From Actinoplanes sp. NBRC 103695 (GTDB lineage: Bacteria > Actinomycetota > Actinomycetes > Mycobacteriales > Micromonosporaceae), in NCBI RefSeq assembly GCF_030269485.1, contig NZ_BSTL01000026.1:62001-126000 (forward strand): a stretch of DNA of 64,000 bases, read 5' to 3'. Positions 41,052 through 50,343 of the stretch are shown piece by piece (position 1 is the stretch's first letter; the number at the start of each line of letters is the position of its first letter). Made by a program: the position numbers and the translations under genes. A model generated the notes under the pieces. It had not been told where the DNA came from, searched no databases, and worked only from the letters and a program-made list of their open reading frames with translations.

Positions 41052-42065
41052 TCAGGCTGAGCCGCGGGGCACCAGCCGGGTGCTGAGAACCACCTGCTGC
41101 GGGTCCGGGTCGGAACCGTCGATCTTGGCGAGCAGGAGCCGGACCATCTCCTCGCCCATCTCCTCGATCGGCTGGTGCACGCTGGTCAGGCCGGGATCGG
41201 TGTGCCCGGCGATGGCCGAGTCGTCGAAGCCGATCATCGCCACGTCGGCGGGCACCCGCAGACCACGCTCGCGGAGCACGCGCATGGCGCCGGCGGCCAT
41301 CAGGTCGGAGGCGGCGAAGACGGCGTCCAGGTCGGGGTGGCGTTCCAGCAGCAGTCGCATGGCCGCCTCGCCGCTCTCCTCGCTGAAGTCGCCGATCGCC
41401 ACCACGCCGGGGCCGAGCACGTCGCGGTAGCCGGCCAGCCGTGCCACGCCGGGGGCCATGTCCTGCGGGCCGGCGATCGCGGCGATCCGGCGGCGGCCGC
41501 GCACCCGCAGGTACTCGATCGCGGCCCGGGCGCCGCCGCGGTTGTCCGCGTCGACGAAGGTCTGGCTGCCGACCGGGCCGGTGGGGCGTCCGGCGCGGAC
41601 CGTGGCGACGCCGCGCTCCTCCAGCTTGGCGGGCAGCGCGTCGTCGCCGTGCAGGGACAGCAGCAGGGCGCCGTCCACGTGCTGGCGGGTGAGGAAGCCC
41701 TCGACCCGGTGCCGTTCCTCCGGCGACTGGGCGATCATCAGCAGCAGCTGGAGGTTGCGGCCGACCAGCGCGGAGGAGATGGACTGCACGATGCGGCCGA
41801 AGAAGGGCTCGGCGAAGAACCGCCGGCCGGACTCGAAGATAACCAGCGCGATCGAGTCGGTACGCTGGGTGACCAGCGTCCGGGCGGCGCGGTTCGGCAC
41901 GTACCCCAGCTCCGCGATAGCGCTCTCCACGGCGCGGCGGGCGGCCGCGCTGACCTTGTCCGAGCCGTTCACGACCCGGGAGACCGTGCCCCGGCCCACG
42001 CCCGCGTGGCTGGCGACCTGGTCCAGTGTCGGCCGCCCCGAGGCGCGGCTGCGTTCCGTCGTCAT
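41052..42065 (-). CDS. LacI-family repressor, CelR/CebR-like
   Basis: 337 residues. HTH: RPTLDQVASHAGVGRGTVSR, VVNGSDKVSAAARRAVESAIAELGYVPNRAARTLV. Effector domain: SIALVIFESGRRFFAEPFFGRIVQ, LLLSLHGDDALPAKLEERG, FAASDLMAAGAMRVLRE, IGFDDSAIAGHTDPGLTSVHQP. It resembles CelR of Thermobifida and CebR of Streptomyces, which bind TGGGAGCGCTCCCA and are released by cellobiose. Four such boxes lie in this window before cellulase genes (45556, 45687, 59808, 59898). It lies directly downstream of the LPMO gene, separated by a strong hairpin. Confidence 0.88.
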   Translation of the reverse strand: MTTERSRASGRPTLDQVASHAGVGRGTVSRVVNGSDKVSAAARRAVESAIAELGYVPNRAARTLVTQRTDSIALVIFESGRRFFAEPFFGRIVQSISSALVGRNLQLLLMIAQSPEERHRVEGFLTRQHVDGALLLSLHGDDALPAKLEERGVATVRAGRPTGPVGSQTFVDADNRGGARAAIEYLRVRGRRRIAAIAGPQDMAPGVARLAGYRDVLGPGVVAIGDFSEESGEAAMRLLLERHPDLDAVFAASDLMAAGAMRVLRERGLRVPADVAMIGFDDSAIAGHTDPGLTSVHQPIEEMGEEMVRLLLAKIDGSDPDPQQVVLSTRLVPRGSA

Positions 42066-45555: not shown

Positions 45556-45569
45556 TGGGAGCGCTCCCA
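45556..45569. promoter_or_regulatory. CelR-type box before GH74
   Basis: TGGGAGCGCTCCCA, the exact consensus reported for CelR/CebR. It lies 27 bases from the GH74 start and just downstream of its candidate promoter. Confidence 0.88.
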
Positions 45570-45668: not shown

Positions 45669-45686
45669 GATGACCGTCCGTCGATG

Positions 45687-45700
45687 TGGGAGCGCTCCCG
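45687..45700. promoter_or_regulatory. CelR-type box before GH5
   Basis: TGGGAGCGCTCCCG, one mismatch at the last position. It lies 18 bases before the mannanase start and overlaps the leader of the rightward operon. Confidence 0.85.
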
Positions 45701-45718
45701 ATCATCGATGGAGGACAC

Positions 45719-47037
45719 ATGCTCCGCATCCTCACCGCGACCCTGCTCGCGGCGGCTCACCTCGTCGCACCGCCGCCGGCCGCGCCCACGCCTTCAGCGG
45801 GCGGAACCATGGCGGCCACCGGGATCCACGTGAGCGGCACGCGCATCCTCGAGTCCACCGGCGACGCGTTCGTCTTCCGCGGCGTCAACCACGCGCACAC
45901 CTGGTACCAGTCGCAGACCACGGCGCTCGCTGACATCAAGTCGCTCGGCGCCAACTCCGCCCGGGTGGTACTCGCCAGCGGCAAGCGGTGGACCAGGAAC
46001 GACACCGCGGACGTCGCGGCGGTCGTCGCCGAGTGCAAGCGGGTCAGGCTGATCTGCGTCCTCGAGGTTCACGACACCACCGGGTACGGCGAGGAGCCGG
46101 CCGCCGCGACCCTGGACGAGGCGGTCACGTACTGGATCAGCGTCAAGTCGGCACTGGACGGCCAGGAGCCGTACGTGGTGCTGAACATCGGCAACGAACC
46201 GTACGGGAACACCGGCGCCTCGGCCTGGACCGCCGCGACCACCTCGGCCGTCCAGCGCCTGCGCTCTTCCGGGTTCGGTCACGCGATCATGGTGGACGCG
46301 CCGAACTGGGGCCAGGACTGGCAGTTCGTCATGCGGGACAACGCGGCCTCGGTCTTCGCCGCCGACCCGCAGAAGAACACCATCTTCTCGATCCACATGT
46401 ACGGCGTCTTCGACACGGCCGCCGAGATCACCGACTCATCGGCCGGTTCCAATCGGCGAACCTGCCGCTGGTGATCGGCGAGTTCGGCAACATGCACTCC
46501 GACGGCGACCCGGACGAGGACACCGTCCTGGCCACCGCGCAGTCCCGGGGCATCGGATATCTCGGCTGGTCGTGGAGCGGCAACGGGGGCGGCGTCGAGT
46601 ACCTGGACATGGTCACGAACTTCGACAAGAACGCGCTGACCACCTGGGGCGCCCGGATCTTCGACGGCGCCAACGGCATCAAGGCCACCGCGAAACAGGC
46701 AGCCGTGTACGGCGGGAGCGAACCTCCCCCTGAGCCCTCCCTCGGTTGCACCGCCTCCTATGCCGCGACGGGCGACTGGGGCAACGGCTTCCAGGGCGCG
46801 GTGACCGTCAAAGCCGGCAGCGGCGCGATCTCCGGCTGGACCGTGGCCTGGACCTGGCCCGACGGGCAGCGCTTCACCAACAGCTGGAACGCCGTCGTCT
46901 CCGGCACCGACGCGATCACCGCCAGGAACGCGGCCTACAACGGCGCGCTCCCGGCCGGCGGCACCACCACCTGGGGATTCACCGCAAGCCGGGGCAGCGC
47001 CAACCGCGCGCCCACACCGACCTGCACCGCTTCCTGA
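45719..47037 (+). pseudogene. GH5 (subfamily 8-like) beta-mannanase with CBM2, frameshifted
   Basis: Signal peptide MLRILTATLLAAAHLVAPPP, then a GH5 barrel like Streptomyces mannanases: GIHVSGTRILE, VFRGVNHAHTWYQSQTTALA, acid/base Glu in LNIGNEPYGNTGAS, and IFSIHMYGVFDTAAEITD. At 46436-46438 one base is missing. The first frame then reads SSAGSNRRTCRW and stops at 46474, while the next frame continues the barrel (IGRFQSANLPLVIGEFGN, with the nucleophile Glu) into a C-terminal CBM2 (CTASYAATGDWGNGFQGAVT) and stops at 47037. As read, the product lacks its nucleophile and CBM. The rest is well preserved, so a sequencing error or a very recent mutation is likely. Confidence 0.8.
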
Positions 47038-48800: not shown

Positions 48801-48835
48801 GAGGCCCGGGACCGACCCCTTCGGTCCCGGGCCTC
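48801..48835 (+). terminator. Terminator-like hairpin after GH6
   Basis: A perfect 15-bp stem (GAGGCCCGGGACCGA with its complement) and 5-base loop, eight bases after the GH6 stop, followed by CTCCTCC. It would end or reduce transcription before the AA10-fusion gene. Confidence 0.8.
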
Positions 48836-48855
48836 TCCTCCTCCGGAGGCTTCTC

Positions 48856-50262
48856 ATGCTTCTTCGTCGAACACTCGCGGCCGTGCTGCTTGCGGTCACC
48901 TTCGTGATGGTGGTGCCGTCCTCGGCAGGCGCCCACGGCAGTGTGGCCGGCCCGGTCTCCCGCAACTACGGCTGCTGGCAGCGCTGGGGCAGCGACTGGC
49001 CGGCGCCCGAGATGGCCACCCAGGACCCGATGTGTCACCAGGCCTGGCAGGCCGACCCGAACGCGATGTGGAACTGGAACGGTCTCTACCGCGAGGGCGT
49101 GGCCGGCAACCACCAGGGCGCCATCCCCGACGGCCAGTTGTGCAGCGCCGGCCGCACGGGCGACGGCCGGTACGACACGATGGACGCGGTCGGCGACCGG
49201 CAGGCCGGCCACGCGGACCAGTCGTACCACGTCTGCAGCGACATCTCGTTCGGCGGCACCTCGGCAGCGCCCACCACGCCCCCGCCGACCACTCCCCCGC
49301 CCACGTCCCCGCCGCCCGCCGCCGACGGCTCGTGCACGGCCACCTACACGGTCACGTCGACCTGGCAGGGCGCCTTCCAGGCCGCGGTGACCGTGACGGC
49401 CGGGTCCTCGCCGATCACCGGCTGGACCACCCGGCTCGCCTATCCCGGGACGCAGGCCGTGCAGCAGTCCTGGAACGCGACCGTGACCGCGTCCGGGGCC
49501 GTCGTCTCGGCCACCAACGCGTCCTACAACGGCTCGCTCAACGCGGGCGCGAGCGCGACCTTCGGCTTCATCGGCACCGGCACGAGCACCACACCCACGG
49601 TCACCTGTACGGCCGCCGGCTCGTCCGGCGGCGGCGGTGGCTCGGCCGTCAAGATCATGCCGCTGGGTGACTCGATCACCGGGTCGCCCGGATGCTGGCG
49701 CGCCTCGCTGCACAACAACCTGGTCGCCGCCGGGCATGAGGTCGACATGGTCGGCACCCTGGCCGGTCAGGGCTGCGGCGTCGCGTACGACGGCGACAAC
49801 GAGGGCCACGGCGGTTTCCTGGCCGTCACCATCGCCTCCGGCACCCAGCTGCCACCTTGGCTGGCCGCCACCGACCCGGACGTCGTGCTGATGCACCTCG
49901 GCACCAACGACGTGTGGAGCAACCGCTCGCCGACCGAGATCCTGGCCGCCTTCAGCACGCTGCTGCGTCAGATGCGCGCCCAGAACCCGTCCACGGTGCT
50001 GCTGGTCGCCAAGATCATCCCGATGAACCCGTCCAACTGCGCCGAATGCGGCGCCCGGGCGGCGGGCCTGAACAACGCGATCCCGGCGTGGGCGGCGCAG
50101 AACTCCACCGCGGCGTCGCCGGTGCGGGTCGTCGACCAGTGGACCGGCTTCGACACCGCCACCGACACCTACGACGGCGTCCACCCCAACGACGCCGGCA
50201 ACGCCAAGATCTCCGCCAAGTGGCTCGCGGCCCTGGAGACAGTCCTCCCCCGACGCGGGTGA
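48856..50262 (+). CDS. Secreted AA10(internally deleted)-CBM2-SGNH esterase fusion
   Basis: 468 residues, GGAGG before the ATG. Signal peptide 1-26, mature N-terminus His27 (HGSVAGPVSRNYGCWQRWGS), as in LPMOs, with PNAMWNWNGLYREGVAGNHQ and AIPDGQLCSAGR. After TMDAVGD (to 114) it jumps to the LPMO C-terminal end RQAGHADQSYHVCSDISFGG, so ~70-90 residues, including the second copper His, are missing in frame. A Thr/Pro linker leads to CBM2 (~155-253). An SGNH domain (~262-468) has IMPLGDSITGSPGCWRASLH, VLMHLGTNDVWSN and YDGVHPNDAGN, the CE3-like set for deacetylating polysaccharides. The LPMO part is probably inactive; the esterase and CBM look whole. Confidence 0.82.
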   Translation: MLLRRTLAAVLLAVTFVMVVPSSAGAHGSVAGPVSRNYGCWQRWGSDWPAPEMATQDPMCHQAWQADPNAMWNWNGLYREGVAGNHQGAIPDGQLCSAGRTGDGRYDTMDAVGDRQAGHADQSYHVCSDISFGGTSAAPTTPPPTTPPPTSPPPAADGSCTATYTVTSTWQGAFQAAVTVTAGSSPITGWTTRLAYPGTQAVQQSWNATVTASGAVVSATNASYNGSLNAGASATFGFIGTGTSTTPTVTCTAAGSSGGGGGSAVKIMPLGDSITGSPGCWRASLHNNLVAAGHEVDMVGTLAGQGCGVAYDGDNEGHGGFLAVTIASGTQLPPWLAATDPDVVLMHLGTNDVWSNRSPTEILAAFSTLLRQMRAQNPSTVLLVAKIIPMNPSNCAECGARAAGLNNAIPAWAAQNSTAASPVRVVDQWTGFDTATDTYDGVHPNDAGNAKISAKWLAALETVLPRRG

Positions 50263-50309
50263 TGTCGCGCCGCGACATCGATGGTACGGTTATGTCACGG
50301 CGCGACATC
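50261..50309. promoter_or_regulatory. Double-palindrome TetR operator, site 2
   Basis: GATGTCGCGCCGCGACATC (50261-50279), identical to the first palindrome at 13104, then TATGTCACGGCGCGACATC (50291-50309). The centre spacing is again 30 bp, with TACGGT between. It lies 34 bases before the cupin start. Confidence 0.8.
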
Positions 50310-50343
50310 ACCGTTGCGTACACCCCATCAGGGAGGCTTCTCC

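Follow-up and report, generated by a model that had tools for sequence, protein, structure and literature searches.

LPMOs are described as having an Ig/FnIII-like beta-sandwich fold of 7-9 strands (PMC7828015), and the second-sphere motif of the AA10 enzyme MaAA10B is given as His216-Gln219-Tyr221 (PMC11137697). For SGNH esterases of family CE3, the block I motif is reported to be GXSXT (PMC9487903). The gene described here, referred to as the fusion, carries parts of both kinds of enzyme. For its esterase part, the best solved relatives by sequence are TcAE206 (5B5S) and CtCes3-1 (2VPT), with E values of 1.5e-28 and 8.8e-16; both share the GXSXT, Asn and Asp/His blocks with the fusion, but neither has an AA10 remnant. 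For its N-terminal part, MaAA10B (MaLPMO10B, 5OPF) and the AA10-CBM2 proteins of congeners have the same signal peptide, N-terminal His, four Cys, linker and CBM2 type, whereas the fusion is without 87-88 residues, the second brace His and most of the strands, and gains a C-terminal esterase. 5OPF is also the PDB relative of the intact AA10 domain of Actinoplanes sp. RD1. The CBM2-SGNH esterases of congeners have an SGNH domain up to 72% identical to that of the fusion, with the same catalytic motifs, but in place of their N-terminal parts the fusion has the CBM2 and signal peptide of an AA10 gene together with the AA10 remnant; its locus differs from that in the four congeners compared, and the operator-like site of the congener genes was not found at the fusion. 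LPMO relatives without a full histidine brace, such as the unusual AA9 of Frandsen 2019, reportedly keep the fold, whereas in the fusion the predicted fold itself is broken by a deletion. At the level of titles and the opening lines of abstracts, no AA10-esterase fusion with a deleted head was found in the literature, which is short of proof that none is in print.

Domain order of the fusion gene

The fusion lies in a window of 64,000 nucleotides from Actinoplanes sp. NBRC 103695, and is quite probably a chimaera private to its lineage, in which the part that works is an acetyl esterase anchored to cellulose and the LPMO head is dead, serving at most as a leader or spacer. Its features are as follows.

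48801..48835, + strand: terminator-like stem-loop with a 15-bp stem and no T run, between the GH6 stop and the fusion
48845..48855, + strand: ribosome-binding sequence GGAGGCTTCTC, with GGAGG 6 bases 5' of the ATG
48856-50262, + strand: fusion ORF, 468 codons, no internal stop
48856..48933, + strand: predicted signal peptide, residues 1-26, with the cut before His27 read from sequence
48934..49254, + strand: AA10 (LPMO) remnant, residues 27-133, from Pfam, alignment and AlphaFold2
49198..49206, + strand: deletion junction CGGCAGGCC; in its place intact genes carry two TGGnAGGCC-like stretches, far apart
49333..49620, + strand: CBM2, residues 160-255, of the AA10-gene and not the esterase-gene type, from Pfam and CBM2 comparison
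49621..49647, + strand: Gly/Ser-rich linker, residues 256-264, the second junction, from comparison of C-termini
49648..50259, + strand: CE3-like SGNH esterase domain, residues 265-468, from Pfam and alignment to CE3 structures

The preliminary description of this locus had reported an intact frame in which an AA10 head is joined to a CBM2 and a CE3-like esterase, and both the open frame of 468 codons and the order of Pfam domains agree with it. Third-position GC across the ORF is 0.94, and the signal-like N-terminus ends at the same position as in intact homologues when the sequences are compared. The LPMO_10 match scores 68.2 bits (cut-off 23) over residues 27-125 and covers only positions 1-87 of the 183-position profile, as opposed to the full 1-183 in genes of three relatives and in the second LPMO of the window. 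The CBM_2 match (PF00553) reaches 82.6 bits (cut-off 24) over profile positions 1-98 of 101, and two GDSL-lipase models match the esterase part at 67.7 and 42.7 bits. NCBIfam profiles gave two partial matches, both far under cut-off, and Rfam gave no match between 45000 and 52000. The LPMO_10 score is a warning for annotation, being well above the cut-off in a protein that has apparently lost both the active site and the fold of AA10.

The esterase domain has its catalytic residues, Ser273, Asn351, Asp440 and His443, as counted from the structure alignment. Block I is present as GDSIT with Ser273, block III as GTND with the oxyanion-hole Asn351, and block V as DGVH with Asp440 and His443 three residues apart; all three motifs align with those of the CE3 structures 5b5s/5b5l and 2vpt. 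If the protein acts at all, it would do the same job as the CBM2-SGNH esterases of congeners, which its own genome otherwise seems to be without.

The deletion in the AA10 head

The head was aligned with 107 intact AA10 domains, of which 28 come from congeners and 79 from the 80 loci of a separate search; some organisms are represented twice (RD1, for example, as L020 and L124). The remaining locus, L194, was left out by the parsing motif and was parsed separately as full length, as are all 108 parsed AA10 domains of relatives; the 108 domains given to the alignment exclude a broken AA10 gene (L048, see below) and weaker, paralogous AA10 rows. The intact domains are 185-199 residues long (n=107), and the fusion head is 106 residues plus one glycine. 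Up to DAVGD, at residue 114, the fusion aligns continuously, and the residues that come next are RQAGHADQSYHVCSD, at a place where intact genes read GDWKAT and, further on, TIWQASH.

The distance between the Trp codons across the gap is 88 residues (264 nt) in both of the relatives nearest over the head; among the 107 intact domains it is 87 residues in 68, 88 in 29, 79 in six, 91 in three and 93 in one. This spacing of 87-88 residues gives a deletion of about 261-264 bp, rather than the approximately 240 bp that had been estimated earlier. The position near nt 49198 proposed at that time was correct, with the junction codon at nt 49198-49200 reading CGG where the parental codon is TGG. At the two ends of the gap the DNA reads TGGAAGGCC and TGGCAGGCC in RD1, and TGGAAGGCG and TGGAAGGCC in Symbioplanes lichenis; at least 9 of 12 bases are identical between the gap-end stretches in 56 of the 107 intact genes. 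A slip between TGGnAGGCC stretches, followed by a change of TGG to CGG, would be the simplest account of the deletion. A frameshift as the cause of the AA10 gap was ruled out by the open frame.

The His in HGADY, at position 108 in the RD1 domain, falls in the deleted part. It is conserved in at least 90% of rows, and we take it to be the second ligand of the copper histidine brace; by alignment the fusion is without it. His27 falls in the same column as His1 of the 107 intact domains, so that the fusion has the N-terminal His if cleavage occurs as supposed. The preliminary reading of the head, in which the N-terminal copper His and the C-terminal end remain, the core is skipped from about residue 114 and the second brace ligand is lost, is borne out by the alignment. 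In addition to His1, the remnant keeps four Cys, the second-sphere motif H-x-x-Q-x-Y (residues 119, 122 and 124 by alignment) and CSDISF at its C-terminal end. Two histidines are new to the fusion in the head alignment, at residue 61 (from Trp/Tyr) and residue 125 (from Tyr).

Structure prediction had been proposed as a check on the head, and its fold collapses in the model. With an identical set of 38 rows, AlphaFold2 gave the fusion head a pLDDT of 48.5 and a pTM of 0.37, with helices only and zero strands, versus a pLDDT of 94.4, a pTM of 0.91 and eight strands for the intact RD1 domain used as control. Of these eight strands, four lie wholly and a fifth mostly within the deleted stretch, and the beta-sandwich of AA10 is absent from the predicted fusion head. 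Although 67 of the 107 head residues have a pLDDT below 50, a model of such low confidence does not prove disorder, and residues 11-40 of the head reach about 70.

The sequence of the remnant has changed little. At 51 positions that are at least 95% conserved in the head, two are changed in the fusion; among the 107 intact domains none is changed in 75, one in 21, two in ten and six in one. Head dN/dS against 15 congeners is 0.23-0.47 (median 0.31), slightly higher than, and overlapping with, that of intact pairs (median 0.26, 5-95% range 0.09-0.41). The ratio of head to esterase distance has a median of 0.74 for the fusion and 1.03 for intact pairs (5-95% range 0.54-1.43, from 15 genomes with both genes). 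As the intact range includes 0.74, decay of the head is no faster than that of the esterase joined to it. In a head tree of 93 distinct rows, the fusion included, and 87 shared columns, where the fusion has no firm position and the bootstrap had not settled, the end branch of the fusion is 0.27 versus a median of 0.026, and two intact rows have longer ones. The conserved positions, the dN/dS, the distance ratio and the branch all cover the time before and after the deletion together. To judge from these comparisons, the head is better preserved than would be expected of a long-dead domain, which fits a recent deletion and also fits constraint on the remnant; the most straightforward interpretation is that the deletion is recent and that the lineage as a whole stands far from its relatives.

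Origin of the parts and their distribution

In congeners, AA10-CBM2 and CBM2-SGNH are two separate genes (checked with Pfam for three AA10 genes and a single esterase gene), and in the four congeners compared these parental genes are at loci other than the GH6 cluster. In a 60-genome search, 28 of 35 other congeners have an AA10 at least 65% identical to the fusion head; of the remainder, G005, G021 and G022 have only a distant one, G023, G029 and G030 have none, and that of G012 is broken. Matches to the fusion below 1e-60 occur in 61 of 66 other congeners, and always include the esterase part among the matches listed. The best AA10-gene copy of the CBM2 is 64.6% identical to that of the fusion, and the best esterase-gene copy 45.5%. 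Among the best 60 CBM2 ORFs, 59 are with AA10 and the remaining one is the fusion, with the next esterase-type copy at rank 98 of 195; this ranking is weighted by the loci fetched, which hold far more AA10 than esterase genes, but the identities are unaffected. An origin of the CBM2 from the esterase gene was rejected because AA10-type copies are closer by both identity and rank. Since the CBM2 is of the AA10-gene type, the second junction falls 3' of it, in the Gly-rich stretch.

The genome of the fusion has no close copy of either parent elsewhere in its draft assembly of 180 contigs. The next best matches are 51-53% identical over part of the head and at most 44% for the esterase, and five other AA10 genes are over the Pfam cut-off, three of them strongly. 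A parental copy may have been lost in an assembly gap. Of five flank proteins of RD1, the two from the esterase locus were found apart from one another in this genome, at C1:103199 and C26:21658 (72% each), the one to the left of AA10 has no match there, and the remaining two match at 63% or less; with matches so scattered, weak or absent, the vacated parental sites cannot be named.

For the assembly of these parts, we infer the following mechanism and order of events. The C-terminal end of an AA10-CBM2 gene would have been joined to that part of a CBM2-SGNH esterase gene which encodes the catalytic domain, with loss of the AA10 stop, and the fused gene placed directly downstream of the GH6 cellulase in a cellulase cluster. 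A separate in-frame deletion of 87-88 codons, probably by slippage or recombination between the two TGGnAGGCC stretches, would have removed most of the AA10 beta-sandwich along with the second copper ligand. The protein, if made, would be exported by the signal peptide of the AA10 gene, its CBM2 would bind cellulose, and its CE3-like Ser-His-Asp domain may remove acetyl groups, whereas the AA10 remnant would perform no redox chemistry and may be an unfolded or partly helical leader that is possibly trimmed off. The locus is a clear single case in which two genes for secreted proteins of cellulose degradation have been fused at a linker and one catalytic domain has been lost, by a probable short-repeat deletion that left the AA10-gene signal peptide and CBM2 in frame.

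The junction was found in no other genome among the matches listed from searches of 60 genomes, of 67 genomes of the genus, and of 101 genomes of the family from a larger group (82 with a match), the own genome being included in each. As the match lists are ordered best first, a true sharer of the junction should rank high. All 80 loci of the AA10 search are full length, including L194 and L153, which first seemed to span the junction; L153 is intact on readout. Among the loci scanned for ORFs of at least 150 codons, with three duplicate fusion copies left out, the fusion is the only ORF with both AA10 and SGNH. A tblastn search of plasmids gave no record covering 80% of the query, and viral contigs held no relative of the fusion. 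A family of its own for the short head was rejected, with no sharer among the matches listed (60, 67 and 101 genomes; 80 loci). The preliminary description had wavered between a dead LPMO head and a new oxidase-esterase architecture with altered metal binding, and had suggested looking for relatives with the same junction. None was seen among the matches listed in genus and family, which, together with the collapse of the predicted fold, favours the dead head; the new architecture finds no support here, and altered metal chemistry of the AA10 head is unsupported. The fusion looks like a one-off evolutionary accident, and not a new kind of enzyme.

Several AA10 loci of relatives differ in other ways. 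RD1 and Symbioplanes lichenis, the nearest to the fusion head by identity, share an AA10 locus that G009 and G035 do not, and their AA10 ORFs (L085 and L089) are too short for a CBM2 (Pfam on L085 only). In G012, a congener AA10-CBM2 gene (L048, G012:C20:234657-235286) is broken by stops or frame changes, or by sequencing error, and this LPMO may have been lost repeatedly within the genus.

Genomic setting and alternative explanations

The fusion starts 63 nt after GH6 in its own genome. Six GH6 loci were fetched from relatives chosen by their GH6, and no gene matching the fusion was found beside GH6 among the genes called there. In five of the six (RD1, G005, G016, G017 and Symbioplanes lichenis) GH6 is near a GH74-like gene and a second LPMO, with a GH5 gene in between in G016, G017 and Symbioplanes lichenis; this cluster was not seen at the GH6 of the sixth relative, G068. 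GH74-like is our own label, as Pfam shows only Sortilin/BNR repeats for the gene in the window.

The stem-loop between GH6 and the fusion folds at -41.6 kcal/mol (z -6.3) and ends 20 nt before the start codon. GC-rich stem-loops were also found 3' of GH6 in six of six relatives folded, without a shuffle control, that of Symbioplanes lichenis being shorter and interrupted. At 29 of 29 congener loci, the 1200 nt before the serine motif of the esterase hold an operator-like TGGGAGCGCTCCCA with at most 2 mismatches, a palindrome that is probably the CebR/CelR cellulose operator. No such site was found within 1200 nt upstream of the serine motif of the fusion, and the nearest in the window is at 45687, before GH5. 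A TGGGAGCGCTCCCA-like site is within 600 nt upstream in one of 28 AA10 loci. A start 20 nt behind a hairpin, and no esterase operator, make expression doubtful. The open frame still speaks for the earlier statement that the protein is probably made, but the upstream hairpin and the missing operator weaken it.

The sequence before the start is an exact 11-base direct repeat, with GGAGGCTTCTC at 48845-48855 and again at 50332-50342, before the fusion and before the next gene. It may be an insertion scar, but it was spotted only in hindsight and spans two ribosome sites. The GH5-CBM2 cellulase gene upstream (45686-47037, +) has a single-base frameshift near 46436, either real decay or a sequencing error, and the copies of two relatives are open.

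The state of the head could also mean that the remnant has been kept on purpose, as a short helical module derived from AA10 (its L2 region), aiding secretion, spacing or cellulose binding of the esterase. Its conserved residues are mostly retained, its dN/dS and relative distance show no clear increase over those of intact genes or of the esterase domain, residues 11-40 are modelled at a pLDDT of about 70, and catalysis-free roles of LPMO domains have a precedent in CWR-1 of Neurospora, described as acting in allorecognition without a need for PMO activity (PMC9550227). However, a recent deletion accounts for the same conservation, the 67 of 107 residues with a pLDDT below 50 sit poorly with a module, and the short head is shared by none among the matches listed, with every one of the 80 loci full length, and a purposely kept module is judged unlikely. 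Contained in that judgement, and extremely improbable, is a bolder form, in which His1, His-x-x-Q-x-Y and the new His 61 and 125 would make up a different copper site or a cellulose-contact patch, and the 107-residue remnant and the esterase would jointly act on cellulose-bound acetylated polysaccharide.

Instead of a chimaera with a working esterase, the whole gene could be a relic, silent or fading, that sits behind the GH6 terminator with neither promoter nor operator and is hardly transcribed. The strong hairpin 20 nt before the start, with its counterparts 3' of GH6 in all six relatives folded, the absence of the TGGGAGCGCTCCCA-like operator found at all 29 congener esterase loci, and the frameshift in the neighbouring GH5 gene are what such a relic would show. 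But 468 codons are open with a GC3 of 0.94, the esterase catalytic residues and a GGAGG ribosome site are in place, the hairpin is without a T run and may allow read-through, and the loci of the AA10 parent are mostly without the operator too (1/28 has one), and a relic seems unlikely. That same single-base frameshift, and the draft state of the assembly (180 contigs), could be taken as a sign that the deletion or the fusion is an artefact of assembly or sequencing and absent from the organism. The near-repeat of about 9-10 bases is, by our reasoning, too short to collapse ordinary assembly graphs, however, and one contig contains both junctions; the deletion is in frame, its junction codon is CGG and not the parental TGG, and the genome is without another CBM2 copy this close, all of which makes an artefact very unlikely.

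Operator-like sequences occur elsewhere in the window. Palindromes like TGGGAGCGCTCCCA are found at 45556, 45687, 59808 and 59898 (two exact, two with one mismatch), four sites versus 0.59 expected, with one of 100 shuffles reaching four; they lie near the GH74-like/GH5 and GH48 genes, and a LacI-type gene lies at 41052-42065. Two near-identical palindromes around ATGTCGCGCCGCGACAT occupy 50258-50309, just before a cupin gene, and are operator-like.
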